DNA of 29,523 bases, from positions 1 through 29,523 of the IMG/VR virus record IMGVR_UViG_3300037882_001239. One strand, 5' to 3'. Under the pieces are notes generated by a model that worked only from the letters and a program-made list of their open reading frames with translations, had not been told where the DNA came from and made no database searches. The DNA comes from a virus. The stretch's first letter is position 1. Every line of letters begins with the position of its first letter. Below are positions 2 to 27,848 of this stretch, piece after piece. The position numbers and the translations under genes are program-made.

Positions 2-151
2 GCGTTCGCGGGCGACATCCAGGCCACCCTTGATTTCATCCCGGTCCACCAGTTCGATTACATCGCGTGGTATCGCGCCAAGGCGGGGGAGATGTCGGTC
101 TTGACGATGGCTAGATACTGTGAGAAATTCTACGGCAAGTTCAACTCTTAG
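2..151 (+). CDS. C-terminal end of an unidentified phage protein (5' truncated by window)
   Basis: An open frame enters from the left edge and ends at TAG 149-151, giving the last 49 residues of a protein. The tail contains an aromatic-rich stretch (FDYIAWYRAKAGE) and ends in KFYGKFNS. No motif identifies it. In podoviral genomes a terminase subunit or small unknown protein often lies upstream of the portal, but the visible residues do not decide between these. The reading frame is open across the whole visible part, and the next gene starts only 12 bases after the stop, consistent with the tight packing of this module. Confidence 0.55.
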   Translation, partial: AFAGDIQATLDFIPVHQFDYIAWYRAKAGEMSVLTMARYCEKFYGKFNS

Positions 152-163
152 CCCTATCTGATT

Positions 164-445
164 TTGGGAAGCGCCTCAGCACCTAAAGCACCTCCGCCTC
201 CGTCGGCCCCGCCTACGGAGTCTCAACGTGATCTCTTGATCAATAACCGGAACACCCAGCGGAAGAACAAGCTCCGGTCCACTCGAAGAGCCTCGTTGCT
301 AGCAGGCGCCGATCCTTCAGACAAACTATTTGGTGCGAATACTCTCCTTGGGGGAGAGGGTGGTGGATACACTACGCCGACCGCGGCTTGGGGTGGTGTT
401 GCTCCCCCGGTTGCCTCTTCGAGTAATCCCTACAAGAGGAAATGA
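164..445 (+). CDS. Small proline-rich virion-associated protein, TTG start
   Basis: This encodes 93 residues. The N-terminus is proline-rich (APKAPPPPSAPP), followed by a basic segment (NTQRKNKLRSTRRASLLAG) and a glycine-rich tail containing FGANTLLGG. Small proteins with a Pro-rich start, an RRxSxL-like segment and a C-terminal TLLG motif are common next to portal or neck genes in podoviruses and are usually left as hypothetical or minor virion proteins. An in-frame stop at 149-151 forces the start into 152-166, where no ATG exists. TTG at 164 is the best candidate, with no clear Shine-Dalgarno. The stop overlaps the portal ATG (ATGA at 442-445), which suggests coupled translation. Function is inferred from position only. 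Confidence 0.7.
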   Translation: MGSASAPKAPPPPSAPPTESQRDLLINNRNTQRKNKLRSTRRASLLAGADPSDKLFGANTLLGGEGGGYTTPTAAWGGVAPPVASSSNPYKRK

Positions 446-9445: not shown

Positions 9446-9769
9446 ATGGATGTCGCCCCCTTTATCACGGCAATCACTGCGCTTGCCGCCGCGATCGCAT
9501 TCATGTGGAGGATGTTCCACGTGGAACATTCACGCACTGCGGAGAAGCTGGAAACCCGGTGGCAGGAGTGCGAGCAAAAGCATGAGTTGACTAGGAAAGA
9601 ACACAGAGATACTCAGAACGAATTGATGGTCGTGAAGGTCCAAATCGGGATGATCGAAGGCCGGATGGAGGGCTACACGAAGGCCAGGAATGATCTTCAG
9701 GACATGTTGATGGAAGCGAAGGGGACCACGTTGACCATCGGGAAGCCCACAATCACTGATGGAGGTTGA
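9446..9769 (+). CDS. Membrane-anchored coiled-coil protein (candidate lysis or membrane protein)
   Basis: This encodes 107 residues. Residues about 4-20 form one hydrophobic segment (APFITAITALAAAIAFM). From residue 30 onward the protein is highly charged and helical (AEKLETRWQECEQKHELTRKEHRDTQNEL and on), a probable coiled coil. One N-terminal membrane helix plus a long coiled coil recalls phage i-spanins and some holin-like proteins, but no partner spanin or endolysin is seen nearby. A structural or membrane-docking role is equally possible. Codons 23-28 contain the parS-like palindrome, encoding MFHVEH just after the membrane helix. M20 and M23 are alternative starts. The 3' end overlaps the next gene by 11 bases. 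Confidence 0.75.
   Translation: MDVAPFITAITALAAAIAFMWRMFHVEHSRTAEKLETRWQECEQKHELTRKEHRDTQNELMVVKVQIGMIEGRMEGYTKARNDLQDMLMEAKGTTLTIGKPTITDGG
9513..9528. other. parS-like ParB-binding site
   Basis: TGTTCCACGTGGAACA is a perfect 16-bp palindrome; the palindrome extends to 18 bp (9512-9529). The consensus for chromosomal parS is TGTTTCACGTGAAACA, and C/G variants at the fifth position from each end, as here, are known functional forms in some bacteria. Host ParB loads at such sites as a CTP-dependent clamp and spreads along DNA. The site lies inside the membrane coiled-coil gene. No parA or parB gene is visible in the window. The match is directly seen; ParB binding is inferred. Confidence 0.75.
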
Positions 9770-10651: not shown

Positions 10652-12150
10652 TGATTCGGCTACCAAATAGACAGAGACTCAAAGATGCGGGAGGCGATGG
10701 TGTCCAGCTATCCCTTGGCGCGAGCGCCGCCGAATCGCAGGCTTTCTTGGCGATTGGCCAGGCTCTAGGGAGCACTGGAGACAAGCTTTCGGCATTCTCC
10801 ACCAAACTTGCCCGCGCAGATAACCTCCGCAAAGTGAGCGAAGCAGAGCTTTCGTGGGCGGGAGCGGAGGCGGAGTTCACCGTGAGTCTTCAAGGGGATC
10901 AGCACCCGGACCAGTGGCTTGGTCGTGTGGAATCCGTCATTGATGGGGCCAAGAAATCCATGGCGGGGACTAAGTATTCCCCGGAAGCAAAACAATTGAT
11001 TGATTCCAAGTTCAATGAATGGGCGATCCGGGCTAAGGGCAAGGTGGCTCTCCAGGCTGCCACGGTCCAGGTGCAAAAGGCCCGTGAGACTGGATATCTC
11101 CGCGCCAATATGGCGGAGCAGATCGGCGATTTCGACACGGCGAGGGGTATCTACGAGGAGATGCGGGCCGCCGAAGTGGATGACCCCACCCGGATTGATA
11201 AGGTCGAGCAGGACATGCAGCGCAATTTCGAAGCGTCTAACATCGAGGCGACCTTATTTGGTGATCCCACCCAAGCACAAATCCTGGTGGATGGGGCGGA
11301 GCACCTTTCCCCTGGAGAGAAGAACGCTTTCAAGCGCAGGATCCGCACGGCCCAGAACCAGACTCAGGGGGAATACGCGGAGCAGAAAGCCTACGAGTAC
11401 GCTCAAGGAAAGGTCCCCACCAAGGAAGAGATCCAAGCGGATGTTGAGGGCGGTTTGATGGACAAGGCAGATGGGGCCAGGTGGCTACAACGCATCGAAG
11501 CTGACCGCTGGGAAGTGGATTGGCCCAAGTATGGCGCGATGGAGGAAGCCGTGGGCTCTTACAATCCAGCGGAAGAAACTGCGGAGTTCGACAATATCAA
11601 GAAGCTTCAACGAGATATCCGAGGGAAAGCATTTCCCGAAGCTTACACCAACCGATTGCTTTCAGCGCTGGAGCACAACCGGACCCAGCGGGCGTCCAAT
11701 CCGGCCCAATCTACTATCCGGACTTCGGTTACCTCTATGGTGCGCGGATGGGCTACTCCTTCAAAGGGGCGTCCCGGTCAGTTCGGGGCCAAAATGGATT
11801 TTCAAGGCAACGTGGACAAGTCGAGCGAGATCGCATCCGAGATTGAGATGTCCAAATTTCGAGATGCCCTCCAGGATTTCCAACGAGATAATCCCACGGC
11901 AAGCCACGCAGACACCACCACATGGGCAGTGAACTACCTCGAAGGGTCCGCCAACAAAGTGGGGGCGGCGAGGGCAGTCCAGCACATCAACACGGGAACT
12001 TTCGACGTGCCCGCCGATGTCAGCGATGAGGAATTAAACTCGCTCCTAGAATCCAGCACAGTGGAAGGGATACTGACCCCGAAACCAATCAAAGAGAAGC
12101 CGTTTGAAAGACGATCCCAGTTCGATAGCCGTGGACTTCCTCAGCGCTGA
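10651..12150 (+). CDS. Internal virion protein C (T7 gp15-like)
   Basis: This encodes 499 residues; T7 gp15 is 747. It is alpha-helical and highly charged with no signal peptide (AELSWAGAEAEFTVSLQGDQHPDQWLGRVESVIDGAKKSM and following). Identification rests on position between the gp14-like and gp16-like genes, and on the style of the N-terminus (SLGASAAESQAFLAIGQALGSTGDKL), which resembles podoviral ejection proteins. In T7, gp15 with gp16 builds a tube across the cell envelope. The C-terminus is basic (EKPFERRSQFDSRGLPQR). The ATG overlaps the upstream stop, and its stop overlaps the next ATG (TGATG at 12148-12152). Confidence 0.78.
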   Translation: MIRLPNRQRLKDAGGDGVQLSLGASAAESQAFLAIGQALGSTGDKLSAFSTKLARADNLRKVSEAELSWAGAEAEFTVSLQGDQHPDQWLGRVESVIDGAKKSMAGTKYSPEAKQLIDSKFNEWAIRAKGKVALQAATVQVQKARETGYLRANMAEQIGDFDTARGIYEEMRAAEVDDPTRIDKVEQDMQRNFEASNIEATLFGDPTQAQILVDGAEHLSPGEKNAFKRRIRTAQNQTQGEYAEQKAYEYAQGKVPTKEEIQADVEGGLMDKADGARWLQRIEADRWEVDWPKYGAMEEAVGSYNPAEETAEFDNIKKLQRDIRGKAFPEAYTNRLLSALEHNRTQRASNPAQSTIRTSVTSMVRGWATPSKGRPGQFGAKMDFQGNVDKSSEIASEIEMSKFRDALQDFQRDNPTASHADTTTWAVNYLEGSANKVGAARAVQHINTGTFDVPADVSDEELNSLLESSTVEGILTPKPIKEKPFERRSQFDSRGLPQR

Positions 12151-15100
12151 TGCCTTTAAACCTCTCAACTGCGGATGCTCGCCGATTGCTGGCCCAAGGT
12201 GTCAAAGAGACTGATCCGGAACGGAAAGAGAAGTTCCGGAGCATCCTACAAAACCATACTTCGGAGAGGATCAAGGCTGGAATGGAGCCCTACAAGGAGA
12301 CCGAGCAAGAACTTGGTGCTCGTTGGGATCGGACCAAGAAGGTATTCGCGGGGCTGGATCAATACACCAATCCGGAGATCAACCCAAATCCGGTAGTCCC
12401 CGGAGACCCTGAAGCGCAACGGCGCTTTGCGGCGACATCGAACATTGCCTACCTGGCCCAGACACAAGGGCTAGATCCGACCGATGCGGCGGATATCTAC
12501 CCACTCCTTCGAGGACGCTACGCCCAGGAGGCCTTCGGAACCAAGGGAGACCCTGGGGATGAAGGGCTCTATGGGTTGATTAAAGGAGCCATCGACAAGG
12601 AGGCCAAGGTCATGGAGGCGTCCAACGCTGCCGCTGGCGGAGCGTTCACCAAGTCATTGGCCACCAAGAAAGGGGACAACTGGACTTCTGCCTATGCCGA
12701 ATGGCGGCAAGAGAACCCTAATCTTTTCGACCGCGAGGACAAGAAATCGGAGAAGGCCATCATGGGCGCTTTCCGGTCCGCGTGGAAAGAGGCTCATGCA
12801 GACACAACCGTCCACCGTAAAGTTGCCCGCACTCTCCTATCGGAACTTCAAGTTACGAAGGATGCGGAAGGTAATGAAATCAAGCCCGAGCTGTCCGAGG
12901 ATATCCTTCAAACTCTTCTCAACGGAAAGCCCGAAGACCGCCAAATTGTTTACACCATACTGCAAGGTGCGGAGAAGGGTGGAACAATTGAGACGGGAGC
13001 AATTGCGGATATACAGACAACGTTGGCCCGTTCTTTCGGCAACATGTTCGGGGCCGCTGGGGACATCAACATGGGACTCCACTCTCAGCGATTGGAATCG
13101 TTGCGTGCTCGACTGCGCCGCGGCGGAGCCATTTTCAAGACCGGCAACGATCCAATCTCGCTAGCGAATGTCAGCGCCGATGAATTAGGCGCGGGGTCCC
13201 GGATTGATCTGGACGCTGATGGGAATGCCATCCAGCGGAAGAAGGTCACCAAGGCCGAGGACATCAAAGAGATCACTCAGTTGGTGGGAGAGGCGGGCAA
13301 CTATCTGGACGTGCTCCGGGAACTTCGGACCCTCGATCAGCAAACGCTCAACCCGATTACTCCGACCCACTTTGTTTCCCGGAAGATACTACATCCGTTC
13401 CTAGAACAGGCGGGGACGGTTGCTGCATCTATCGCACTGCCCAGTATGGGGCTGCCTACGGCGATTGCGGAGCAGCGAATCCAGGAACTCCGTGGCCGTG
13501 GAGTCCCACTGGACAAAGCTACTACGATGGGGAGGCTGTCGGCGTCGATTGAGGCCCCCATTGAATTCCTCCAGACGATGACCGGGCTACGTGGTGCCAA
13601 GATCCTCGGTAAGGTGGCCGCGGGCACGGCCCCAGCCAAGGCGTTCGTCAAGAATGTCGCCACCACTCTACTGGTAGAGAATGCTCAAGAGGCTGTCCAG
13701 GATGCGACCAACCTCCTGATCCAGGGGGTAGGCAGTGCTTTTTCCGATGACATGTCTGCTCCCACCAAGGAGCACTGGAAGGAATACCTTGGAGGGCGAG
13801 CAGACACGTTCTGGGCTCTCCTACCCTTTGGTTTGATCGGCGGAGGCAGTGCCACTTTCAATGATTTCAAGCAGGGGAAAGCTTTGCTCAGAGACCGTCG
13901 TGCTATGGTGGCCGTTGGACTGGATCGGGAGACCGCCGTGGATGTCGCGACGACTGAAGACCCGGTCATGGCGCAAGCTAAACTCCGCCAGGCTTACGAT
14001 GATGGTAAGGTTGGGAAACCTGACCCCACAGCCTACAACGAAGCCCTCAAAGGACTTGCGGACGCTCACGAAGATATCACGATCGATCCCGAGTCCGGAG
14101 CGGTCACTCTTACCGACCTCACCACCGGGCAATCGGTCACCTTCCCCGACATTGAGTCCGCTCACATGGGCAGGGAGGACGCCCGCGAGGTATCCGCTCA
14201 AGATAATCTCAAGGCCATTCGTGCTGTCCAGAAGCGCTTTGAGAATCGCGGTCAGGTGGAGTATGCTCCGGACACCCTTAAGAAGGGGGAGAGCCTAGGA
14301 ACCCGAGTTGATTCGGGGGAAACGACCACCGAGCAGGCTCGTCAACGGGTGCAGGCATTGGCGCTGGAGGACGGCCATGCTCTGGATCATTACGATAACC
14401 TCCCATTCTCTGCTTTCCCGATCCACGCTGAATCATTCTTCAACGAAGCCACGGGCCGGTTCATGGTGCGGATGGGTGAGGAAGGCGGGGTCAAGGCGGC
14501 CATTGAGGATTCAGCGGAAACAGTCTTCAAGAACTGGGATATAGCTGGTTACCGGACTATTGATCAATACCGGGAGTGGATAAGCCAGTTCCAGGCAATC
14601 AATCGGAAGAAATTCCATCTCCTGGATGACGTGGCCACGGCGACCAAGGAGGAAGTGATCGAAGCCATGTCCTCTCTTGCAGTGGGCTATGCCTACAACA
14701 AGTCGGCGGATTACAGTTTCGATTCTACCCTGACCCGTATTCTTCGCCAGTTGGCCGAACTATGGCGACACGCTACCCAGCGGGGGGCCTTGTTGATTAG
14801 CCAGTTCGAGGCAGGAGTCTTAGACAGTGATTTCCATTCGGCGATCGCTTCCGCTGCGGGACTGGACGCCCCCGCCCGCAAGCGGATGGAACCCGTGTTC
14901 CGCAAGCGCACGGCGGAACAGGTGATTGATGACCTTCGGAGTGATATCTCTATAGAGGTCTCCCGTGATACGGACCCCGATCCGGAGACCGTGGTGGCCG
15001 ATGCGGACACGTTGCGTTTCCTTGACGCTATCCTAGTAGCAGTTGGCCCCAGGGCGGACCACCGCAAGGCGAAGAAGGTCAAGGGGGCAAAGCCCGTGGA

Positions 15101-18100
15101 TGATCACCCGGTCCCTCTCCCTCCGGAAAGGGCAGACCTGAAGCCCGCCAAGGTGGAGGTGGTGGCCATTCCTGCCAGGGACAGTCTGATCCAAGAGATC
15201 AATCGTATTCAGGATCTCCCGTACGGCGCTCAAGATGAAGCCCGGATGGCAGAGGCAATGACCCAACTAGTCACCTTCGAGGACACCAAGGCGGGGGATA
15301 TCGCCAAGCTCCGGGCTGATCTGGTGGCCCAGGGGTTCACGACCAAGCGCAAGTTTGGTGCGGAAGTATTTACTGCGCCTAAGCCGGTCAAGCCGGTTGA
15401 AGCTGCCCCTGCTCCGGGCACCCTTACCGGGTTGAAAGCTGCGGGCAAGAAGGCCGAGTTAGCCGCCATCAAGGATGCCTTAGAGCAATTCGCCAAGTAT
15501 CCGGACATGCCATCGGGGGTTCCGACGGTCCCCAAGGTTGCAGATCCCCATAACCCTGCTAGCTTAGCAGACACGGTAAGAAAGTATGTCGAGTCCAACG
15601 CCCAAGCAGATTCAGCAAGACCAGCTGGACAGAGCGGTCAAAGTAAAACGAAGTCCGAGCGTAGAGCGGAGGCAGCAGCGCTTGCGCGATTTGCTCCGAA
15701 GCTTACCGAATCCGTTCGCCAAAGAGCCCTAAAGGCGTGGGAAAGTCAGCAAGGGGGCGCGGAGCATTTCGTCCATGCGGATGGGAGTGGCAGGATAATC
15801 AAAGTCCTCTATGAGGACTCCCTCCAGAATAACGGTTCGGTATTAGAATACCTGGAGAGGATCGCGCTGGGTAACCAAGTGCTTGGGGACGACGTTCGCG
15901 TCGAGGGAACGGACGCTTCCGGCAGGTTTGTGGTAACCAGTCAACGGTGGGTTGAATCAAAAGGAGATCCCAACGACGCCACTATTCGTAAATTCCTGGA
16001 GGATGCGGGGTACCTCCCCCTAGCGGAGAACCGTTGGTTCCACCCAGCTACGGGGGTCCTCTTAATGGATGTCAACTCCGGTAATCTTCTCGTAACTGAT
16101 AAAGGGCTAGTCCCTATCGATGTGGGAACGGTCCCCGTCCAAACCTTCCGCAACTGGATTGAGGACCAGGTCGGGAAAGAGGAGATTGCCGAACCAGCAT
16201 TCTTTGGAATGCTGGCCGAAGAAGACATCGATATGGTGGTGGATGATCGGGGCCTCCTCCCACCGGCTGCGGTGGTATTCGGCTCCGCCCCTACAAAGTC
16301 AGGGCTTGAGACGATCCAGGATGCCTACGCTACCGCGAAAGAGAAGTCCGGCTCCCCCTACAATTTCATCCCCATAAGTGAGGTGGTGTTCGCTTCGGGT
16401 CTTTCCATAGAGGACGTCCACAAAGCCATTAAGGAAGGGATTGCTGCGGGAGGTGTACAGCTTTCCATAGGAGAGCCCGCCTACGCGTCTAAAGAAGTCT
16501 TGGAGGCTTCCATACTCCTGAGAGATGTAAAGATGACGCTGGTTTCTGCTCCGAAATTAGAGACTACGTTGTCAATCAGCAGACCCAACAACCCGTTCAT
16601 CCGGAATGGATTCACCAAGGCGGCGACCACTCAGGATGCCCTTGCCGTGATGGCTGTCCATGGCACTCCGGGACAACGGGAACTTGCCAGGCATCTCCAG
16701 AAAGCGGTACCTAAAAGCACTACATTCAATTTCCTCCCCGAGCTGGAATATACCTGGCCGGGCGGGAGGGTGTCCACGGATATCTCAGGGCTTTACTACC
16801 ACGATACGAACCATATCGACTTGGCAAAGAAATACCCTACCAGCGTCTTGTCTGAGGCGATGTTACACGAAGCCGTGCACGCGGCGACCGCTAGCATAAT
16901 CCATCGCACGCTTGCCGGAGACCCTACAGTTACCCCGGAACAACGTGCCGCGGTGACCAAGCTGGAGGAAGTCCGCAAGGCATTCCTGGCATGGGGGATT
17001 CACCACCGGATCGGCAATATTGGTAGGAAGGACACTCGGTTCACGGAGGCGTACGCGTTTAACTCGGTGGAGTTTCCGGCATGGGTGCTGACCAGCGACT
17101 TGCTCATGAACAGGTTCAACCTCGTTGCGTCTGATCCCGAGGCGATCATCCATAACAAGATCAGGGAACTTGTTGTGACCGGACAGATTACGCCGGAGAG
17201 GGGAACCGAGCTGGAAGAATATGCCAAACTGCTCAGATCAATGGAAGTGGCTCAGGGGGAATCCTTCCTGGGCTGGATCATCGATCTGATCGGGAAACTC
17301 ATCGGAGCCACGACCACGCCAACAATGGAGGCGGCTTTCAAAGCGTCCATGGATCTCCTCACCGTGCAAGCTGAAGTCCTCGCCGCCCAAGAGGTAGGGA
17401 CCACGTTCTCCATTGGCCGCCCTGAGATCGAGCCTTTACTGAACAAGGCCACCTTCATCAAGAACTTCAATGAGAAGGTGACCCGCCACGTGTTGGGCAA
17501 GATCTCCGCGATCGATGATAAGTGGTCTAAGAAGGTCCGGGAGGAAGAACTAGCGGGCCGTCCGATCAAGGATACCGCCGAGGTGACCCAGTCTCTCCGT
17601 CAATTGGACGCCCTTCTCCACCTGATCCCATCCCAGATCCGGGCCAAGATTGGCGGCCATATCCCCCTTTCCATGCTCCGGAAGGACGCTTCGAAAGCGC
17701 GCCTACTACGGGCCAAGCTCGAAGCGATGGAGCGGGAGCTGAAGATCTTCCTCAAGAAGAAGGAAATAGCCAAGCTAACCACGCTGGTAGAAAAGACCCG
17801 TCCAAATAACACCAAAGGTTTCGCCAAGGAACCCAAGGAACCCAAGGAAGTTGACCCGGATGCGGAGCCTAAGGTAAAGAAGGAACTCACTCCGGAAGAG
17901 ATTGAAGCGCGTGCCGTCCTGGCCGCTGGCAAGGGCAAGGTTGGTGGCCACATCGCGGAGATGCTGGACCAGATCGGGGATGTCCTCAAGTTGTCCCCGT
18001 CCGAAGCAGACGCCAAGTTGGCGGAAATAGACAAGGCGTTGAATGACCCGGACCTGGACCCCAAGACAGATGTCTCAGCGCTGGAGAGTCTCCGGTTCCG

Positions 18101-20555
18101 ACTGTCCCGATACGGCGGACTCTCTGAGGCGAGCTACGAACAAGTGGTTGATGTCCATACGGAAATCGCGGACATGATTCAGACTGGCCGGATTGAACGG
18201 GGCCAGATCGAATTCAGTAGACTGGAGCGGGAACGGCTTACCCGTGAGGCGATCATCAATCCCCTCCCTATCAAGGGAACCACGTCTAATGCCAAGGCGA
18301 AACGGCGGGAGGAAGAGGGTCAAGGATTCCTCAAGCGCACGGGACGGGCGGCGAAGGAGTTCGCCGATCTCCACATGAGCTTCGGCCAGGATTTGGATAT
18401 TGCTTTCAATGGTGCCAAGGGATTGGTCAAGGCGTTCCTTCCGAAAGTCCGGCTCTCCACCACCCGGTTCACGGACGCCATGATCGAAGCCGGGGACACT
18501 TTCGAACTCGAACTTGGTAAACTCTGGGGGATTGAACGCACGGGAGCCCTGGCGGATATGCGCACCAAGCGGGCGGTGGACCTGAAGTTGGTGGAACTGC
18601 ACGAAGCCAAGCCCACCGGGATCTCCTTTGACGGGATGGATGACCAGGTGATGGACCAAGCTGAGATGATCAACTACACGCTGATCTACGGGCAGGAACG
18701 CTACCGAAAGAATCTCGAATCGATCGGCTACACCGCCGAGGTAAACGAGCAGGTGGAAGCGCTCCTGTCCAAGGAAGCCATCCAGCTCCGGGCGTGGCTA
18801 CTCGACAAATACAAGGAAGGTTACGACCGGTTGAACGAGGTCTACGAACGGATCAATGGTGTCAAGTTGCCGAAGGAGAAGAACTACGCCCCGGTCAGCT
18901 TCACCGCTACTGATTCTAGCACTAACCTACTTGACCCTTTCAGCAAGGAGCGCCATGCGGAGTTCTTCGCAGCATTCCTTCGAGATCGGGTGTCCCACAC
19001 CAAAGCACCTGAGCGGAATTCCGCGCTGTCCGTCTATTGGGGACACACCGTGAAAGCCGAATACTATACCGCTTGGGCGGAGACAATCCAGTTTCTCCGT
19101 GGGACGCTGTCCCACCGGGACACCCGGTTGGCCGTCAAGGCCAATTCAGGCACCCATATGGATACGGTCCTCCAGACCTGGGTGAACGTGTTCACCAATA
19201 ATGGGCACGCGAAAGCCGAGGGGCACCTTGCAAGTGGCCGCTGGTTCTCCCGTGTCCGCCGTACCATGGCGATCACTGGGCTGGCTTACAATATCAGCTC
19301 GATCATGAAGCAGTTGCCCGCCTTGGTGGCCTACGGAGCTTCGGATCTGAACTTCCGCGAGGCGGTCACTCATACAATCAAGACTCTCCTGTCCGCTCCG
19401 ATCGGCAAGAGTGGCTACATGGAGATGCTCCAGAATCCGATTATCACTCGACGAATCAAGGGTGGGCACTCGATCGAAGCACGGATCGCCACCCGGTCCC
19501 ACGGGGTTGGTCCGGATATTCTATCAGATCTGTTGGAGGCTGGTATAAAACCGTTGTCCTATTTCGATGCGGCGTTGACCGCGTTTTCGGCCACCGTGAT
19601 CCAGAGCGCCCACACGGCCAGGCTCTCCGGGGACCAGCTGAATAGTCCTGAGGTGAAGGCCCAGATTCTCCGCGATTCGATCAACGAAGCGGTGAACAGC
19701 ACGGCCCAACCGATCGAATTGATGGACCGATCCCTTGTGGAGATCACCAATCAGGAAGGGATTAGCTTCATGCTGTTGATCTTCCGATCGGAGCCCCGTC
19801 AGAAATTGGCGCTCCTAATCCGGGCAATCAGTGAGCTTTCCCACGGCAAGGACGTGGAGAAGAATGCGACTACCATCTTTACCGTTGGGGTGATCATGCC
19901 TTCTATGATCTACGCCATGGGCAAGATCTTCGCCGCCCAGTTCAGGGGCGATGATGAGGAACCAACTCTGGAAGATCTGGCCGCTTCGTGGTTGGCGGGC
20001 CAGTGGTCCGGGGTGGCCTTTTTCGGGGAGGCGATCGACGCGGGCATCGCGTTGTCTTTCGGACACACCGCGTTTACTCGATCGGACAATAAGGCGCTGA
20101 CCGGCACGGTGGACTTTATTTCCGCTATCAACAAAGGCTCACTCTCTGCCGATCTGTCCGATCCGGATAAGTTCATCAAGTCTGCCAAGGTATTGGGGAA
20201 TGCAGCTGCGGGCTTGCTTGGGGGTAATTTCTCCGCGCTTCCCGTGGGCGTGCGCATCGCCGAACAGGTTCGGGGCTTTGAGAATCCCCTCACCGGTGAG
20301 AGCTTGAAAGAACGCTTTGAGAAGGAGACCAAGAAATCAGCCACCACAATAGAGAAAGAACTGTGGGGGCAGGAGACGGAACTTGACTACATTATCCGGA
20401 CTTCCACTGTGGGTGACGGTTCCCGAGCAGAGCTGATCCACCGCTCCCTACAGCGTCTTGACGACGACGAAGCGCGCGAACTCCTGCGCAAACGTTGGGT
20501 TGATATGGAACTAATTTCCGCTACCGTAGAAAAACAATTGAAGGCCCTTAAGTAA
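12150..20555 (+). CDS. Giant internal virion (ejection) protein with kinase-like and metallopeptidase domains
   Basis: This encodes 2,801 residues in one frame, about twice T7 gp16 (1,318). It lies in the gp16 position between the gp15-like protein and the tail fibre, so ejection into the host is expected. Residues 1-400 are helical; hydrophobic segments lie near 420-440, 553-570 and 2571-2597. Residues about 1185-1330 carry a divergent protein-kinase pattern: K1218 (RIIKVL), helix-C candidates E1233/E1236, D1307 and N1312 (MDVNSGN) and D1324 (PIDVG), like kinase domains known from polyvalent phage proteins. Residues about 1475-1750 carry a zincin motif, HEAVH at 1573-1577, with E1641 (SVEF) as possible third ligand. 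SIGEP, SISRP and SIGRP (1439, 1475, 1754) mark module edges. The last 800 residues resemble polyvalent-protein C-termini. I see no lytic transglycosylase motif. Confidence 0.87.
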   Translation: MPLNLSTADARRLLAQGVKETDPERKEKFRSILQNHTSERIKAGMEPYKETEQELGARWDRTKKVFAGLDQYTNPEINPNPVVPGDPEAQRRFAATSNIAYLAQTQGLDPTDAADIYPLLRGRYAQEAFGTKGDPGDEGLYGLIKGAIDKEAKVMEASNAAAGGAFTKSLATKKGDNWTSAYAEWRQENPNLFDREDKKSEKAIMGAFRSAWKEAHADTTVHRKVARTLLSELQVTKDAEGNEIKPELSEDILQTLLNGKPEDRQIVYTILQGAEKGGTIETGAIADIQTTLARSFGNMFGAAGDINMGLHSQRLESLRARLRRGGAIFKTGNDPISLANVSADELGAGSRIDLDADGNAIQRKKVTKAEDIKEITQLVGEAGNYLDVLRELRTLDQQTLNPITPTHFVSRKILHPFLEQAGTVAASIALPSMGLPTAIAEQRIQELRGRGVPLDKATTMGRLSASIEAPIEFLQTMTGLRGAKILGKVAAGTAPAKAFVKNVATTLLVENAQEAVQDATNLLIQGVGSAFSDDMSAPTKEHWKEYLGGRADTFWALLPFGLIGGGSATFNDFKQGKALLRDRRAMVAVGLDRETAVDVATTEDPVMAQAKLRQAYDDGKVGKPDPTAYNEALKGLADAHEDITIDPESGAVTLTDLTTGQSVTFPDIESAHMGREDAREVSAQDNLKAIRAVQKRFENRGQVEYAPDTLKKGESLGTRVDSGETTTEQARQRVQALALEDGHALDHYDNLPFSAFPIHAESFFNEATGRFMVRMGEEGGVKAAIEDSAETVFKNWDIAGYRTIDQYREWISQFQAINRKKFHLLDDVATATKEEVIEAMSSLAVGYAYNKSADYSFDSTLTRILRQLAELWRHATQRGALLISQFEAGVLDSDFHSAIASAAGLDAPARKRMEPVFRKRTAEQVIDDLRSDISIEVSRDTDPDPETVVADADTLRFLDAILVAVGPRADHRKAKKVKGAKPVDDHPVPLPPERADLKPAKVEVVAIPARDSLIQEINRIQDLPYGAQDEARMAEAMTQLVTFEDTKAGDIAKLRADLVAQGFTTKRKFGAEVFTAPKPVKPVEAAPAPGTLTGLKAAGKKAELAAIKDALEQFAKYPDMPSGVPTVPKVADPHNPASLADTVRKYVESNAQADSARPAGQSGQSKTKSERRAEAAALARFAPKLTESVRQRALKAWESQQGGAEHFVHADGSGRIIKVLYEDSLQNNGSVLEYLERIALGNQVLGDDVRVEGTDASGRFVVTSQRWVESKGDPNDATIRKFLEDAGYLPLAENRWFHPATGVLLMDVNSGNLLVTDKGLVPIDVGTVPVQTFRNWIEDQVGKEEIAEPAFFGMLAEEDIDMVVDDRGLLPPAAVVFGSAPTKSGLETIQDAYATAKEKSGSPYNFIPISEVVFASGLSIEDVHKAIKEGIAAGGVQLSIGEPAYASKEVLEASILLRDVKMTLVSAPKLETTLSISRPNNPFIRNGFTKAATTQDALAVMAVHGTPGQRELARHLQKAVPKSTTFNFLPELEYTWPGGRVSTDISGLYYHDTNHIDLAKKYPTSVLSEAMLHEAVHAATASIIHRTLAGDPTVTPEQRAAVTKLEEVRKAFLAWGIHHRIGNIGRKDTRFTEAYAFNSVEFPAWVLTSDLLMNRFNLVASDPEAIIHNKIRELVVTGQITPERGTELEEYAKLLRSMEVAQGESFLGWIIDLIGKLIGATTTPTMEAAFKASMDLLTVQAEVLAAQEVGTTFSIGRPEIEPLLNKATFIKNFNEKVTRHVLGKISAIDDKWSKKVREEELAGRPIKDTAEVTQSLRQLDALLHLIPSQIRAKIGGHIPLSMLRKDASKARLLRAKLEAMERELKIFLKKKEIAKLTTLVEKTRPNNTKGFAKEPKEPKEVDPDAEPKVKKELTPEEIEARAVLAAGKGKVGGHIAEMLDQIGDVLKLSPSEADAKLAEIDKALNDPDLDPKTDVSALESLRFRLSRYGGLSEASYEQVVDVHTEIADMIQTGRIERGQIEFSRLERERLTREAIINPLPIKGTTSNAKAKRREEEGQGFLKRTGRAAKEFADLHMSFGQDLDIAFNGAKGLVKAFLPKVRLSTTRFTDAMIEAGDTFELELGKLWGIERTGALADMRTKRAVDLKLVELHEAKPTGISFDGMDDQVMDQAEMINYTLIYGQERYRKNLESIGYTAEVNEQVEALLSKEAIQLRAWLLDKYKEGYDRLNEVYERINGVKLPKEKNYAPVSFTATDSSTNLLDPFSKERHAEFFAAFLRDRVSHTKAPERNSALSVYWGHTVKAEYYTAWAETIQFLRGTLSHRDTRLAVKANSGTHMDTVLQTWVNVFTNNGHAKAEGHLASGRWFSRVRRTMAITGLAYNISSIMKQLPALVAYGASDLNFREAVTHTIKTLLSAPIGKSGYMEMLQNPIITRRIKGGHSIEARIATRSHGVGPDILSDLLEAGIKPLSYFDAALTAFSATVIQSAHTARLSGDQLNSPEVKAQILRDSINEAVNSTAQPIELMDRSLVEITNQEGISFMLLIFRSEPRQKLALLIRAISELSHGKDVEKNATTIFTVGVIMPSMIYAMGKIFAAQFRGDDEEPTLEDLAASWLAGQWSGVAFFGEAIDAGIALSFGHTAFTRSDNKALTGTVDFISAINKGSLSADLSDPDKFIKSAKVLGNAAAGLLGGNFSALPVGVRIAEQVRGFENPLTGESLKERFEKETKKSATTIEKELWGQETELDYIIRTSTVGDGSRAELIHRSLQRLDDDEARELLRKRWVDMELISATVEKQLKALK

Positions 20556-23500
20556 TGATCACCACAACCGCCCGCGCAATCAGCTACACTCCCGATGGGG
20601 TTCAGACGGTGTTCGAATTTCCTTACGCGGTCATCGCTAATGAGCACCTAACAGTTACTGAAGACGGGGTGGTCGTGACCGCCTTCCTGGTTTCGGGCGC
20701 GTCGGATACTGGGGCCACAGTGACCTTCACCACGGCACCCACTGCCAACTCCGTGTTGGTGATCTCCCGGACCACACCGATTACTCAGTTGGTGGACTAC
20801 GTCCCGAACGAGGCTTTCAATGCGGAGACTCATGAGAACGCTCTCGATAAGCTCACTCTGATACTCCAGGAGTACTCGGACGATCTGGACCGGGCAATCA
20901 AAGCCCCGGTTGGGTCCACCACTCAGACCAGGATTACCACCGCATTCTACGGGAAGTTCCTCGGCTTCTCTGCTTCTGGGGACGTGGTGGCGCTAGATGA
21001 AACCGTTGGCGGCACCGGTGGGGGCACTTCTAATTTCGATATGTCGGACGCTGGGGACCTGGACGTGATCAACGTAGCAGCTACAGGAACAACCACGATC
21101 GCTATCCCTAATACTGACACGCCAGTGTTTGGCGCTATTGTTACCGCTTCCGCAGGAGCAGGATCTTACACTCACTCAATCAAACTACCCGCCCCTGGCA
21201 GCGCGGGACAGCGGGGCTTCATCCGCTTCCTAATGGACTCGGCAAGTGCGAATCCTGCCCTCCGGGTGGTGGATAACGCGGATGCTGTTGTGGCAGGCAC
21301 TCTGATTACCGCCTCGGAAGGGGAATATCGAGCGGACATTCGGGTAGTTTCGAACGGGTCTACCTGGGCGCTGGACGGGGTCACCTTCGGGGACGTTGGT
21401 TACGACCGTGCGCAAGGGATGACTTACAACGTAACCACGTGGGCCGAATTGGTGACCGCCGTTGCCGACTCGGGTAACGCCGTGATCTTCATCACCAAGA
21501 CCATAGGTGGCCCGGACCGGTTGGCGATGACGATCCCAGCCACACACCGATTGATCTTCGCCAAGGGGGCGGCGATGTCCCTCACCAACTCGTTCGATGA
21601 TGGCAACATTACGATCAATTGTGAGGTGATCACGGGGCAGAAGGATCAACTTATCTTCATCTCCGCAATGCCCGGCACGGTCACCGGATCGTTCGGCGGA
21701 CAGCCCCGTAATGTGGCGTGGTGGGATGACACCACCGCACTCTTAAACAACGCCTACCCGTCCAGTTGGCGTGAGATCCAGTGTGCTGTATGGGCGGCGC
21801 CATGGAGCACTTCGACCGCCACCCCAGTTACCATAACTGCACTCAATGATACGACGAACGTACTCACGGTTGCCGACACGAACGAGTTTCGTGCGGGTGA
21901 TATTGTTTTTCTTGTTGGTGGTACTACTGTCCCTACTGGTCTAATCAATGGAAGGCCGTACAAGGTGATCAATGCCACGGCGGGCGCGGGGACTACTCTC
22001 TCCACTTTCCAGCTCGCTGTTGGTCCTTCGGGCGTAGCCGCCCAGTCTTTCAGTGCGGGGGGTTCCCTGGACATCACCGTAGTCCGGGCGACATCCACCA
22101 CCAGTCATGAGGTAATTCTGCCTAAAGGGAACGACGCCACCTACACCTTGGCCAGGCCGATTGACATGGCCAACACGGGGGCGATCCTGGTTGGCAACAA
22201 GGGGACGATTATCACCGACGACCAGAAATCGTGGCAGGTAAACACGATTGAGAACGATCTGTACCCAGCCGGTTCAACGGTAGCTTTCACCGGGGCGACC
22301 ACGGTTGTGACGGTCACCGCGCACGGCTACACCACGGGCGACATCATCGAAATGGTGACGCTCACCACCGCTGGAAACCTCAACCTAACCGAAGCTTGGT
22401 ATGCCACCGTCACCGGAGCGGACACTTTCACTCTCGCCACCACTTATGGTGGGTCCGCTATCACCGTGGGAACAAGTGCCGGAACTTTGCGCCTTCGGGC
22501 GGGCCATGCGCCGATGGTTATTCTTGGCGAAGCTGGGCCGGGAACTTGGTCCGCCTTGCCCACTGGAATTCGAGACCTTACCCTCGATGCCAACGAGCTT
22601 CCTGGAGTCTCTTGTGTCGGGGCCCGAGGACAAATCCCCCGAGGGTCCTACGTCCGAGACTGCGAGCTGAAGAAACCTGGCCGTCACTATGTGGGCTGGC
22701 AGAAAATCTGGGCAGCTTCCCCAGGCTACGCACTGTCCAATGATGTTAGTGAGCTGGAGATTTCCAATTGTTGGATGACTGGGATCAATACAACCGGGTC
22801 CCAAGAAGCCATCCCGCTACACCTACCTGGCAATCGATGCATTGTCAGTAATTGCGAGATCGCGGGGGATGCTGCCATCTCACGTCGGATTGTCTACGGG
22901 GCTAATAAGCTTGGCTTGTCCTTCCGTGATTGCCATTGGTCAAACGCTTACCACTTCCTGGACTTCGTCAACCACGCTCAGTATCTGTCCGCCCACCTAG
23001 ACAACGTCAGCGGAGCCGCAGCAAGCGGGGCCACCGTGGAAGTCACCGACTGCACTTCGAACGTCTTCACCGCCACCGCCCACGGGCTAGCTGATGGGGA
23101 CTTGATCATGTTCGAGGGTACAGGCACCACGCCTACTGAATGGGTGGACGCCAATGGCTACATCGTGCGCGACGTTACCGCGAATACTTTCCAGGTGACC
23201 GACTTCCCGGGCGGGTCCGCGTTCGCCTTTACTAACAGCGCTAACAACTTCACCACACTTGATCCCGGCGCGGTCATCCGTTGGTCTTCCTCCCAGGCCA
23301 CCGCCAAGGTATCCGCGTATAATATTTCGGAGTTCGGCACTGGGGCGATTATCCTTGATGACACCACGGCATTCCGCGTAATCACTGGGGGTGACGATCG
23401 TATCCTCACTGCGGGCCACCGCCGGGGTGACTTCCTTTCATGGGGATCTGCGGGGTACACCGTGATCTCTGATGGAGTGGTCCGAACTCAGGTGGTCATC

Positions 23501-23701
23501 CTTTCCGAGAGGGACACCCAGTTTAGTATGCCCGTGATCGATGAAGAAATTGCTCTCATGCAGTTCAATACTACTGGTCCGGAAAGGTCCTTCGTAATCA
23601 AGATGGAGAGCGGATCGGCCACCCGATGGAAATTCATCAAAGCCAGTCTTTCTGCTGCTTCCCCCACCTGGACGGGTGAAAACACCGACCCTGAAGTCTA
23701 A
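20555..23701 (+). CDS. Tail fibre protein (T7 gp17-like N-terminus)
   Basis: This encodes 1,048 residues. Residues 1-125 match the T7 tail-fibre N-terminal domain that attaches to the tail: ISYTPDGVQTVFEFPYAVIANEHLTV, VLVISRTTPITQLVDYVPNEAFNAETHENALDKLTLILQE. The remainder is beta-rich and probably trimeric, partly a beta-helix (residues about 645-830, with GTWSALPTGIRDLTLDANELPG and related turns). Three segments, near residues 423-490, 575-646 and 825-896, share an HGYxxGDxIxF, Y-x-V, T-x-TF-x-L pattern and look like repeated small beta-barrels of the E1-FCCH-like type. The C-terminal part should carry receptor binding; no self-cleaving chaperone motif is seen. The ATG overlaps the stop of the giant ejection protein (TAATG). 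Confidence 0.9.
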   Translation: MITTTARAISYTPDGVQTVFEFPYAVIANEHLTVTEDGVVVTAFLVSGASDTGATVTFTTAPTANSVLVISRTTPITQLVDYVPNEAFNAETHENALDKLTLILQEYSDDLDRAIKAPVGSTTQTRITTAFYGKFLGFSASGDVVALDETVGGTGGGTSNFDMSDAGDLDVINVAATGTTTIAIPNTDTPVFGAIVTASAGAGSYTHSIKLPAPGSAGQRGFIRFLMDSASANPALRVVDNADAVVAGTLITASEGEYRADIRVVSNGSTWALDGVTFGDVGYDRAQGMTYNVTTWAELVTAVADSGNAVIFITKTIGGPDRLAMTIPATHRLIFAKGAAMSLTNSFDDGNITINCEVITGQKDQLIFISAMPGTVTGSFGGQPRNVAWWDDTTALLNNAYPSSWREIQCAVWAAPWSTSTATPVTITALNDTTNVLTVADTNEFRAGDIVFLVGGTTVPTGLINGRPYKVINATAGAGTTLSTFQLAVGPSGVAAQSFSAGGSLDITVVRATSTTSHEVILPKGNDATYTLARPIDMANTGAILVGNKGTIITDDQKSWQVNTIENDLYPAGSTVAFTGATTVVTVTAHGYTTGDIIEMVTLTTAGNLNLTEAWYATVTGADTFTLATTYGGSAITVGTSAGTLRLRAGHAPMVILGEAGPGTWSALPTGIRDLTLDANELPGVSCVGARGQIPRGSYVRDCELKKPGRHYVGWQKIWAASPGYALSNDVSELEISNCWMTGINTTGSQEAIPLHLPGNRCIVSNCEIAGDAAISRRIVYGANKLGLSFRDCHWSNAYHFLDFVNHAQYLSAHLDNVSGAAASGATVEVTDCTSNVFTATAHGLADGDLIMFEGTGTTPTEWVDANGYIVRDVTANTFQVTDFPGGSAFAFTNSANNFTTLDPGAVIRWSSSQATAKVSAYNISEFGTGAIILDDTTAFRVITGGDDRILTAGHRRGDFLSWGSAGYTVISDGVVRTQVVILSERDTQFSMPVIDEEIALMQFNTTGPERSFVIKMESGSATRWKFIKASLSAASPTWTGENTDPEV

Positions 23702-24002: not shown

Positions 24003-24845
24003 ATGGCCATTGCTGGTAGATGCGGGACTTCCCTACGGACTACATTACGCCCCACGTTGCGGGGGTGCAACACTGATTGGGAGTTCCTCCTTCCCGGTGC
24101 GGTTGACCCAACAGACGCGAGTAGTCGCTGGCGAGCTGACTCGTACACATATTCAACCGGAACGCTGCTCGACACAGGGACCAGTGGTTACAATCTGGTA
24201 GCCGTTGACCCAGCGGACGAGAGACCAACGCTTGTCACGGAGTGGAGTCCTAGTGGCCTCCCGGCCATGCTATTTGATGGCGTGCAAAACCGGCTTCAGC
24301 ACGAGAATGGCGCTAGCTCCCCTGGATATACGCGCCGTGCGCATCCGACAGCTTCGGGTGCGTTTGCGGCCATCTTTGTCGGCGATATGACTAATTTCTC
24401 TACTTATCGCTACATATTTTCTGAGGCGTGTGACCCATCAACCGGTATTTGGCTTACCAGTTTTCTGGTAGGGGCCTCGGGCGAGATTCAGATTCAGCGG
24501 TTCGGGGGAGCTGGCACGGGCAGTGCGCTCACGGGAAATGGTTACATCACAAATGGCGTTCCTTTCGTGATGGGTGTCCGTGTCGAGTCGACGCTCTTGA
24601 CCCTTTGGGTGAACCGAACCAAGATCCTCAACGCTGTTGCGTTTGACGGGAACAATCAATCTTGTTGGTTATCTAGGCGTTCTCTGGGTGCTCAGTCAAC
24701 TGGGACAGGGGCTGGCAGCGCCAACCAACCATGGCTTGGACACTCCGCAGAGACCCTTTTCTGGAACGCCGCAGTATTCCCTTCAGAAGCGGTATTCGGA
24801 ACCTACATGGATTGGTGTCACAACTACTACGAGATTCCCTATTAA
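24003..24845 (+). CDS. LamG/concanavalin-A-like lectin-type receptor-binding protein
   Basis: This encodes 280 residues. The pattern SRWRADSYTYSTGTLLDTGTSGYNLVAVDPADERPTL, then GLPAMLFDGVQNRL, then FAAIFVGDMTNFSTYRYIFSE, GEIQIQRFGG and ETLFWNAAVFPSEAVFGTYMDWCHNYYEI is typical of concanavalin-A-like (LamG-type) jelly-roll domains that bind glycans, including the common closing xxxLxxYxxxxY element. It is probably a receptor-binding or accessory fibre protein. It begins two bases after the preceding stop, with a GTAGCC leader and no Shine-Dalgarno. A stretch near 24,380-24,430 looks more AT-rich than the neighbouring genes. Confidence 0.75.
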   Translation: MAIAGRCGTSLRTTLRPTLRGCNTDWEFLLPGAVDPTDASSRWRADSYTYSTGTLLDTGTSGYNLVAVDPADERPTLVTEWSPSGLPAMLFDGVQNRLQHENGASSPGYTRRAHPTASGAFAAIFVGDMTNFSTYRYIFSEACDPSTGIWLTSFLVGASGEIQIQRFGGAGTGSALTGNGYITNGVPFVMGVRVESTLLTLWVNRTKILNAVAFDGNNQSCWLSRRSLGAQSTGTGAGSANQPWLGHSAETLFWNAAVFPSEAVFGTYMDWCHNYYEIPY

Positions 24846-24850
24846 TCCCT

Positions 24851-25696
24851 ATGAGGCCATTCCTTCTCTTACCGCTCTTCCTCGCAGCTTGCGCGAGCCC
24901 ACGACTTCCACTTGAACCGGTCAGCGTTCTGGAGCTGTCCGCGATCCGATCGGAAATCTCCGCGGATGCTGTAGACGTGCCCACCCCGAACATCAGCGCC
25001 CCATTCAACAAGGCGTTGGTGAATCTACTTGGCCCCCCCACGGAAGACGCTAAGGAAATCTTCGCGGGCTACAGTGTGACCGGGCATTCTGTCTGGTCGG
25101 ACAATTGGTTGAGGGGCTTCGATTTCAGCGGGGTGGCTTGGGATAGCACCCGAGCAGGGACCTTGATCACTCCTAGGCATGTCATCATGGCGAAACATTA
25201 TCCAAGGGCAGTAGGATCAAAGCTTACCTTCCACCTCCCGAACGGAGACCCGTTGGTCCGTACGTTGGTAGACCGTCAGAGCCTCTCCATTACGGACGTG
25301 TCCATCGGCCTTCTGGACGAACCTGCTACGGGGTGTGCTGTCTACCCCATCATGGCTCCCGGCTACGACTGGGAGAAGGCCCTCTACGGCGCTTACGGCT
25401 TTGTCTGCGACCAGGAAAGGAAGGTGCTGCTCTACCAGCTCACTCAGTTCAATGATCTCTTCGTTGGTCTCAGGGGATCGGACGACACCACGCCCGCATT
25501 CATGCGAGAACCTTTAATCTCGGGGGATTCCGGCCACCCAGCCTTCTTCCCCTACGGAAATAATCAGCTCATCTTGCTCACCTGTCACTGGTTTGGGGGA
25601 GCCGGAACTTCCGGTCCCAACCCTTCCGGAGAAATGATCAAGTCTGCTATAATCGACGCCGTCAATGTGATGGATGCCCGGAACCCGCAAGCATAG
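24851..25696 (+). CDS. Predicted lipoprotein with trypsin-like serine protease triad
   Basis: This encodes 281 residues. I chose ATG 24851 because it lies 5 bases after the previous stop and directly begins a lipoprotein signal (MRPFLLLPLFLAAC, lipobox LAAC with Cys14). The longer open frame upstream overlaps the lectin gene. A chymotrypsin-family triad can be read: GTLITPRHVIMAKHY (H116, parallel to TAAHC), TDVSIGLL (D149) and ISGDSGHPAFF (S227 in GDSGxP). The mature protein would be anchored in the cell envelope of a diderm host. Why a phage makes it is not clear: envelope remodelling, exclusion of other phages, or processing of virion proteins are possible. Its last 35 bases overlap the end of the primase-helicase gene on the other strand. 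Confidence 0.82.
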   Translation: MRPFLLLPLFLAACASPRLPLEPVSVLELSAIRSEISADAVDVPTPNISAPFNKALVNLLGPPTEDAKEIFAGYSVTGHSVWSDNWLRGFDFSGVAWDSTRAGTLITPRHVIMAKHYPRAVGSKLTFHLPNGDPLVRTLVDRQSLSITDVSIGLLDEPATGCAVYPIMAPGYDWEKALYGAYGFVCDQERKVLLYQLTQFNDLFVGLRGSDDTTPAFMREPLISGDSGHPAFFPYGNNQLILLTCHWFGGAGTSGPNPSGEMIKSAIIDAVNVMDARNPQA

Positions 25697-27848
25697 CTGG
25701 GAAGTCCACTACGTATTGAGTGACCCTCCCCGTAACGTCGCGTTCGATTCTGGGGTCCGACTTGGCCACCTTAGCGATCGTCCTTCCCAGGACGGCGACC
25801 CCAGGGAAAGTGGATTGAAAGGAGGCTTGGAATCCCCCGCTGGGGAAGGTCTTGGCGAACTCATACACGTCTGACGCGGTCACCGCTTGGGGAAATTCGT
25901 CTCCCCCGTTCTTTATCTGGGTCGCCATCATGTGGATTACCCGAATGATCATGTGATCCCGATCACTTGCCAGGTCCCCCGCTTCGACGATTGGTTGGAG
26001 AGACGGATCATGGAAAGGGAGGATGCCGAAACGCCCACACTTCAACTCGTCGGGAATCACCATGTCCCGTAGATAGGCGGCAAACGAAGGGAGTTCCTCC
26101 GTGATGAGCTGTTCATCGGACGGGTAGAAATCCATCTTGCCCGGCGTGGTTTCCACGTAGCTCATCTTGTCATATAGTGAACCGGTATGCGGGAGGGCGT
26201 CCAGGCTAGAGGAATCGCTGTTGCAGGCTATGATCAACCTACCGTGCCAGGTTATCTCAGTGGCTTCGGTAAACATCGCCCTTGCCCTCACTGTGTCGTC
26301 TGCCAGGGTTTTCTTCAGGTTGTCCGCGAAGGCCCTCCCTCTCGTTCTCCCGAGATCATTCGGAATGTCTGAGAGATACCAGATTGGCTTGGCGAATGCC
26401 TGCATGTTGAATGCATCAGTCCCTAAGAGGAATGCCTGCGGGTCCATTGCGCCCCCAAATAGGTTTCCCAGGATTCCACGGGCGAAGAAATTCTTACCGA
26501 CCCCTGGAGGACCGATCATGAGCATCCCAAGTCCCCGGCACGGAAAGCCATTGGTGGCGCTGTGGTAGGCATGGGCGACCCATAAGAGCATATGCTCACG
26601 GACTTCCGGACGGAAGCAGGTCTCGAAGAACTCCGCCACCCGAGGGAAACCTTCCCCCCAGGCGACCTTTCCCTTAGTTGCTCGGATGGCTTGGACATCG
26701 CTGGTATTCAGGAAAAGAGAGCCACCATTGGTCCGGATAGGGCCAGGCTTGCGGAATAGGCACGGGCCAGATCCACGCACCCGCTGAGTTTGATTGATCA
26801 GCTCTAGGCCGGATTCCATGGCGCTGATGGTTTCCCCCTTTACCGGGATCGCCGTCAGACCCTTACTCTTGAGCGCAATTTTTATCGAACTCAGGGTCTC
26901 AGTCTCCCAGACCCCGTTAATGTTCCGCCAGTAGACCTTGCCTTCCTGGTAAATATCCTCTACCGCTTGGGCGGTGAGGGTGTCCAGAACTTCCCCCACC
27001 GCTTCTATCCCACACAGTCGGCGGTCTGACCAAGGCATGAACCCGTCTGTCCCAGACCAATTGTAGATCCCGTTTGTATATATCCGACATGCGGTTACGT
27101 TGTCCGCCTCGGGATCGTAGAAGCGGTGGTAGCGCTGACCTGGTTCGAAATCCTCCCAGACTATACCGGCGTGTGGGTATTTTTCTGATAAGATGGACCT
27201 GATCTTGGCGATCGGGACATCCTTGTCCTTGGAATATTGCCACCGATTACGGGTAGCTGCCATGATCATTTCCCTCAAGGATAGCAGGACCGTATTAGAG
27301 ACTGGACGCTTTCGGATTGGCGACCAGTCCCGCCCGATCTCGAAGACATGGTGGGGACTGGTGACCGCCGCCATGTCTACTGTTCCGGGCAGCGATTTCA
27401 GACCTGCCTTGGAGATAAACGTGGAGATGAACTTGCTGTAGGCTTCCTTGCCACACACCGGGATCTCACGGTCAAACTCGTAATGCAAGTGGAAACCTGT
27501 AGAGTACGACCTGGAGATGAACTGGGGGAGATAGCGAGCTTCTACCACCTTCTCTATGTGCCGCTTCATGCTTCCCATGGACACATGAGCGTCGTCGATA
27601 TCCACAACGATCCCGCCAAATAGAATCCCTGGGTTGTCGTGGCTAGGCCGCTTTGTGGGGTCCTCGGGCTTGACCAAGGTGATGAAGTAGCCCTCGAACG
27701 ACACGTTGCTCCAGTTGTTCTTCTCCCCTTGGCCGTAGTCAGACAGCTGGTCGACGATATCTTCGGCTGGGGATCTTAGCTCCTCCAGCTCCTGGGTGGC
27801 CAGGTTCTTGAGGACTCGGTAGGTAATAGCGCTTTTTATGACCGCCAT
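25662..27848 (-). CDS. AEP-type primase fused to SF3-type helicase
   Basis: This encodes 728 residues. The N-terminal 130 residues show archaeo-eukaryotic primase features: GGIVVDIDDAH (D83, D85 as metal ligands) and SRSYSTGFHLHYEFD (H120/H122). The C-terminal half is an ATPase of the D5/SF3 type: Walker A GPPGVGKN at 446-453, a Walker-B-like YLSDIPND, and a motif-C-like LIIACNSD. The protein would unwind the fork and lay primers. The ATG lies 12 bases downstream of the polymerase stop, so the two form an operon on the - strand. No Shine-Dalgarno is visible. It converges on the lipoprotein gene with a 35-bp overlap of coding ends. Confidence 0.88.
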   Translation of the reverse strand: MAVIKSAITYRVLKNLATQELEELRSPAEDIVDQLSDYGQGEKNNWSNVSFEGYFITLVKPEDPTKRPSHDNPGILFGGIVVDIDDAHVSMGSMKRHIEKVVEARYLPQFISRSYSTGFHLHYEFDREIPVCGKEAYSKFISTFISKAGLKSLPGTVDMAAVTSPHHVFEIGRDWSPIRKRPVSNTVLLSLREMIMAATRNRWQYSKDKDVPIAKIRSILSEKYPHAGIVWEDFEPGQRYHRFYDPEADNVTACRIYTNGIYNWSGTDGFMPWSDRRLCGIEAVGEVLDTLTAQAVEDIYQEGKVYWRNINGVWETETLSSIKIALKSKGLTAIPVKGETISAMESGLELINQTQRVRGSGPCLFRKPGPIRTNGGSLFLNTSDVQAIRATKGKVAWGEGFPRVAEFFETCFRPEVREHMLLWVAHAYHSATNGFPCRGLGMLMIGPPGVGKNFFARGILGNLFGGAMDPQAFLLGTDAFNMQAFAKPIWYLSDIPNDLGRTRGRAFADNLKKTLADDTVRARAMFTEATEITWHGRLIIACNSDSSSLDALPHTGSLYDKMSYVETTPGKMDFYPSDEQLITEELPSFAAYLRDMVIPDELKCGRFGILPFHDPSLQPIVEAGDLASDRDHMIIRVIHMMATQIKNGGDEFPQAVTASDVYEFAKTFPSGGFQASFQSTFPGVAVLGRTIAKVAKSDPRIERDVTGRVTQYVVDFPAMLAGSGHPSH

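Follow-up and report, generated by a model that had tools for sequence, protein, structure and literature searches.

The window analyzed here, by which we mean the whole 29,523-base stretch of the IMG/VR virus record IMGVR_UViG_3300037882_001239, is a podovirus fragment with head-tail connector, capsid, tail tubular, and T7-type fiber genes. The end of its rightward structural operon is formed by a gene coding for a 281-aa protein with a predicted lipoprotein signal and a chymotrypsin-like domain (Table 1). The gene is wedged between the last gene of the fiber cassette, whose 280-aa product found no match in the family libraries, and a convergent gene for a DUF5906 primase/helicase-like protein, which has no match in the annotated phage collection and for which single-sequence patterns recovered no IMG/VR relative. 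In-frame alternative starts lie upstream at 24731 (ATG), 24812 (TTG), and 24815 (GTG); we chose 24851 because the N-terminus that it yields matches those of the homologs. Shine-Dalgarno-like sequences are present before few of the gene starts in the window. The GC content of the gene (0.572, as against 0.563 for the window) is phage-like, and this composition, the 5-bp gap upstream, and the 35-bp convergent overlap led us to set aside a chimeric contig. A segment similar to the region between the lipobox and the protease domain (residues 15-66) is present, by alignment, in three other loci (L006, L007, and L008).

Table 1. Features of the protease locus and its neighbors (window coordinates)
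Feature	Coordinates	Strand	Basis or remark
Predicted lipid-anchored chymotrypsin-fold protein, CDS	24851..25696	+	281 aa, stop included; homologs and fold
Signal peptide MRPFLLLPLFLAAC	24851..24892	+	Lipobox LAAC; predicted lipidation on Cys14 (codon 24890-24892); Ala at +2
Linker and helical segment, residues 15-66	24893..25048	+	Alignment; model confidence low to middling
Chymotrypsin-like domain, residues 67-277	25049..25681	+	VIA-align range 67..274, Z 17.6
His116 codon (His57 equivalent)	25196..25198	+	Family, elastase, and viral-set alignments
Asp149 codon (Asp102 equivalent)	25295..25297	+	Family, elastase, and viral-set alignments
Ser227 codon in GDSGHP (Ser195 equivalent)	25529..25531	+	Family and elastase alignments
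Upstream 280-aa gene, last of fiber cassette	24003..24845	+	Stop lies 5 bp ahead of the protease gene
Tail fiber, T7-type N-terminal domain	20555..23701	+	phrog_1640, E 2.6e-21; PF03906 just under cut-off
Convergent primase/helicase-like gene, DUF5906	25662..27848	-	Overlaps the protease end by 35 bp

Fold and conserved motifs

The 281-aa protein has no match in Pfam, PHROG, or NCBIfam. Its AlphaFold2 model, built from a 45-row alignment that left out the loci from the bacterial genome searches, has a pLDDT of 78 overall and mostly of at least 90 in the core. The best VIA-align match of this model is delta-chymotrypsin (Z 17.6, rmsd 2.8 over 178 residues), and Foldseek retrieves chymotrypsin-fold proteases with E about 4e-8. 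The fold prediction that had been proposed as a check on the original prediction thus returns a chymotrypsin fold, which is compatible, at the level of the fold, with the three putative catalytic residues coming together. Consistent with this, the family profile aligned with leukocyte elastase (E 0.016) sets H116, D149, and S227 on His57, Asp102, and Ser195. The two-barrel fold seen in the model and the structural comparison, and the His-Asp-Ser order at aligned positions in the sequence alignments, both place the protein in clan PA. Pfam Trypsin (PF00089) does not match the phage protein under its curated cut-off and matches 2 of the 12 family members weakly (best E 0.0031); we file the phage protein, by its predicted fold, as S1-like and not as a member of Pfam Trypsin. 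With S1/clan PA proteases such as chymotrypsin, elastase, thrombin, and staphylococcal Spl it shares the fold (Z about 17), the order of the triad, and GDSG, whereas its identity to them is about 11-18%, it falls below Pfam Trypsin detection, and it bears a predicted lipid anchor.

The original prediction, made from the sequence alone, had pointed out a LAAC lipobox with Cys14 and an H116-D149-S227 triad with GDSGHP, and both are borne out by the family: Cys14, the three triad residues, and all of G225-D226-S227-G228 are invariant across 12 lipoproteins, i.e., the phage protein and 11 bacterial ones, the latter sharing 30-36% identity with it in the family alignment. Lipobox-like N-termini arise by chance at about 0.26% of start sites (14/5362 in mononucleotide-shuffled sequence), so the LAAC motif alone is weak evidence. 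The signal peptide is short, and a Cys at position 14 is slightly early by the usual lipobox rule. Taken together, the signal, the lipobox, and the invariant Cys point to a type II signal-peptide lipoprotein. H116, D149, and S227 show no variation in 43 viral sequences of the domain either; of these residues, only the His and the Asp count as independent there, since the search pattern selected for GDSG. His110, six residues before His116, was considered for the catalytic role and rejected: several bacterial members carry another residue there, and it is H116 that lines up with the histidine of the AAH motif in chymotrypsinogen C and elastase; hence, we take His116 to be the catalytic residue. 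Further motifs in the protein are GTLITPRHVIMAKHY, ITDVSIGLLD, and ISGDSGHPAFF. That all the family members compared have kept the triad and GDSG speaks for selection on catalysis, and the sequence and the model make catalysis by the phage protein likely. The residue at the position of Asp189, counted back from Ser227, is not acidic, which makes trypsin-type specificity unlikely. For His246, a residue conserved in almost all of the lipoproteins, we conjecture a position near the S1 pocket, as in the glutamyl endopeptidases.

Bacterial and viral relatives of the protease domain

A scan of one genome per species, covering 84,980 species, recovered a single relative. It is a lipoprotein encoded on the chromosome of an uncultured Verrucomicrobiales bacterium, and it has 37% identity to the phage protein over 186 residues. 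A two-sequence profile of this pair then gave matches in 34 of 388 Verrucomicrobiota genomes, comprising lipoproteins of the same design (L003-L013) and, in other loci, longer multidomain proteins. The closest relatives are 11 Verrucomicrobiota lipoproteins that are 30-37% identical to the phage protein. In a careful tree, from which ten long-branched or divergent rows were omitted, the 12 lipoproteins group together, separated from the viral set by a branch with 100/100 support. This single clade and the common architecture place the phage protein in a Verrucomicrobiota family of lipoprotein proteases. The bacterial members (L002/L004-L013) have in common with it the lipobox Cys, the triad, GDSG(H/N)P, and the flanking motifs; they differ in being chromosomal, with ordinary neighbors where these could be named, and in the presence in several of a Pro/Arg-rich C-terminal tail, which the phage copy lacks. 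This tail carries an RRPRPRVV-like motif in L004, L005, L006, and L008. Of the largest flanking ORFs, examined for 10 of the bacterial genes, 7 contained a named Pfam domain and 3 had none; the named ones are ordinary genes of a chromosome and include those for a KDO transferase, a Mur ligase, an aldehyde dehydrogenase, and an oxidoreductase. The phage protein sits on a long branch beside these lipoproteins; on the sequence comparisons, capture from a bacterium is likely, though a branch of this length leaves the direction (and the date) of the transfer unproven.

IMG/VR yielded nothing to a single-sequence search or to one with a two-sequence alignment, and the annotated phage collection, searched with the lipoprotein itself, yielded a chance match only. 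A 12-row profile, however, retrieved 69 IMG/VR loci (L033-L101) encoding the same domain on long, varied N-termini. A convincing lipobox is absent from all 69, and the window protein is the only viral lipoprotein version found with this profile in IMG/VR. In a PHROG scan of ten of these proteins, three matched tail or structural families (fiber, collagen-like, and Ig) and seven had no match. These modular proteins, and likewise the protein P0009 of the related podovirus MW202510.1, have the same domain and triad as the window protein; in contrast to it, they lack a convincing lipobox, have in some cases tail-fiber-, collagen-, or Ig-like N-termini, and fall on the opposite side of the tree, in which P0009 itself is unplaced. 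L033-L101 constitute a large viral set of chymotrypsin-like domain proteins that lacks a family name, and they are possibly virion-borne proteases. A gene in one Verrucomicrobiota genome (L024:307-2280), perhaps of prophage origin, combines the same protease domain with collagen-like repeats and an N-terminus that is baseplate-like by eye.

P0009 of MW202510.1 is a 411-aa domain protein without a lipobox, encoded at the end of the structural cassette and before the convergent replication genes, i.e., in the same slot as the protease gene of the window. It is strongly diverged, and its grouping with the window protein is not rejected (p-AU 0.488). That this slot holds a non-lipidated domain protein hints at an action of the domain at the cell surface.

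Phage lineage and candidate host

By capsid and tail proteins, the nearest isolates are HTVC010P-type Pelagibacter phages, at 35-40% identity. Among 38 related phage records, many of them fragments, whose capsids are 47-55% identical, the lipoprotein profile has no match, and a broader profile, run with a positive control, has none in 29 of those 38; as judged from these searches, the protease gene is accessory. In several related phages the fiber or large virion gene is followed by a region with a small lipoprotein and an endolysin, and in one the same slot holds a TM/coiled-coil protein weakly like the Rz spanin. Elsewhere in the window, positions 9446-9769 encode a protein of 107 aa that has a membrane segment at its N-terminus and a charged tail resembling a coiled coil. 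It is similar to inner-spanin-like or holin-like ORFs of related phages and could belong to a displaced lysis set. Positions 12150-20555 encode a virion-type protein of 2801 aa that matches a polyvalent-protein kinase domain (PF18762) and, separately, virion RNA polymerase (phrog_2206).

A search of 388 genomes of the Verrucomicrobiota group with the capsid protein gave homologs in 30 of them, with a best identity of 41%. In one of these, capsid, tail tubular B, acetyltransferase-like, and internal-virion genes occur in the order of the window. This syntenic podovirus morphogenesis block (L195:1-12360; G192 contig C6, capsid start 213443) lies on a Verrucomicrobiota chromosome and includes a gene for a 2042-aa protein. 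A single prophage with both a capsid homolog and the protease domain was considered in two genomes (G253 and G256) and rejected, the two genes being far apart. The capsid homologs, the synteny, and the ancestry of the lipoprotein make a Verrucomicrobiota host plausible, a suggestion for an uncultured podovirus lineage that we regard as suggestive only.

A proposed role at the host envelope and comparison with known systems

The original prediction had described the product as a likely anchored serine protease, a view now well supported by the invariant Cys and triad, the modeled chymotrypsin fold, and the lipoprotein clade; its description as phage cargo likewise agrees with the absence of the gene from related phages and with its kinship to bacterial lipoproteins. 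The purposes that it suggested, a block to superinfection or the maturation of fiber proteins, would be candidate functions; a role in lysis did not figure among them. We propose, as the probable reading, that the gene encodes a captured host lipoprotein protease that is made late, anchored in the envelope, and cuts host envelope proteins. The gene lineage would derive from the Verrucomicrobiota lipoprotein family and be accessory in the phage. Since its gene closes the rightward structural operon, the product should be made late; it would then be exported, receive its lipid on Cys14, and become anchored in the envelope, with the Ala at +2 suggesting the outer membrane, such that the serine endopeptidase domain would be held about 50 residues from the membrane. 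There it may cleave envelope or surface proteins of the host. The most likely benefit would be the removal or alteration of surface proteins, resulting in receptor clearing or reduced re-adsorption; more broadly, the phage might gain from lower re-adsorption, from keeping other phages out, or from easier lysis. Against this we count the reported lack of activity of this fold in UmbA, the lack of a PF00089 match, the short signal peptide, the inferred host, and the long branch.

The slot itself brings up a role in lysis, in which late cleavage of outer-membrane or peptidoglycan-linked proteins would open the cell as an enzymatic counterpart of the spanins. Besides the lysis-type genes in this slot in related phages, the ORFs after the domain gene of MW202510.1 encode, as read by eye, a TM/coiled-coil protein and a small lipoprotein, and no endolysin or holin was recognised within the window. 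However, outer spanins are small lipoproteins with an adjacent inner spanin, whereas the window protein is a 281-aa globular protein with an enzyme fold and a size unlike any spanin, and it has no adjoining TM/coiled-coil gene as a partner; no lysis genes are linked to its homologs in bacteria; and about 10 kb are missing relative to a genome of this type, where the true lysis genes may lie. We consider a lysis helper rather unlikely. The adjoining fiber cassette, the tail-fiber-like N-termini of some domain relatives in other phages, and the non-lipidated version in MW202510.1 would all suit a protease that cuts, or travels with, the fiber proteins encoded upstream. Yet, the window protein is without such an N-terminus, its lipobox would direct it to export away from the assembling virions, and it groups with the bacterial lipoproteins and not the viral set, so that a part in virion maturation appears improbable.

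The protease fold might also serve without cutting, as a lipoprotein that holds or masks a receptor: the trypsin-like domains of the umbrella-toxin UmbA proteins are reported to lack catalytic activity and to bind a partner (PMC11062931), and the phage lipoprotein Ltp of TP-J34 keeps DNA from being injected (PMC3952083). In the phage protein and its family, though, the triad is intact and invariant, and the catalytic residues and GDSG are kept in every member compared, leaving little probability for a purely binding function. A host gene picked up without any selected role would agree with its absence from all related phages tested and with the failure to find a second phage lipoprotein copy; we hold this to be very unlikely, given the frame and active-site residues that are intact despite the long branch (no more than 37% identity to any bacterial homolog compared), the phage-like composition, and the tight packing between neighbors. 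Returning to the captured envelope-anchored protease, a fuller version can be offered tentatively and with low confidence: in a podovirus of Verrucomicrobiota, the captured anchored host protease would strip surface proteins for superinfection exclusion or as an aid to lysis; its gene lies in a slot in which a related phage has the domain in non-lipidated form.

In literature searches limited to an open-access library, no phage lipoprotein with a trypsin-like domain was found. Genomes of the cluster N phages of Alphaproteobacteria are annotated with a trypsin-like serine protease (PMC10783043), which resembles the window protein in its annotation and is not described there as a lipoprotein. 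The superinfection-exclusion lipoproteins Ltp and Cor are, like the window protein, phage-encoded envelope lipoproteins; the window protein has no match among the superinfection-exclusion PHROGs. To our knowledge, neither Ltp nor Cor is a protease, and the phage envelope lipoproteins known to us work through binding or serve as spanins. A serine protease that is intact and lipid-anchored would represent an enzymatic route to changing the host surface.
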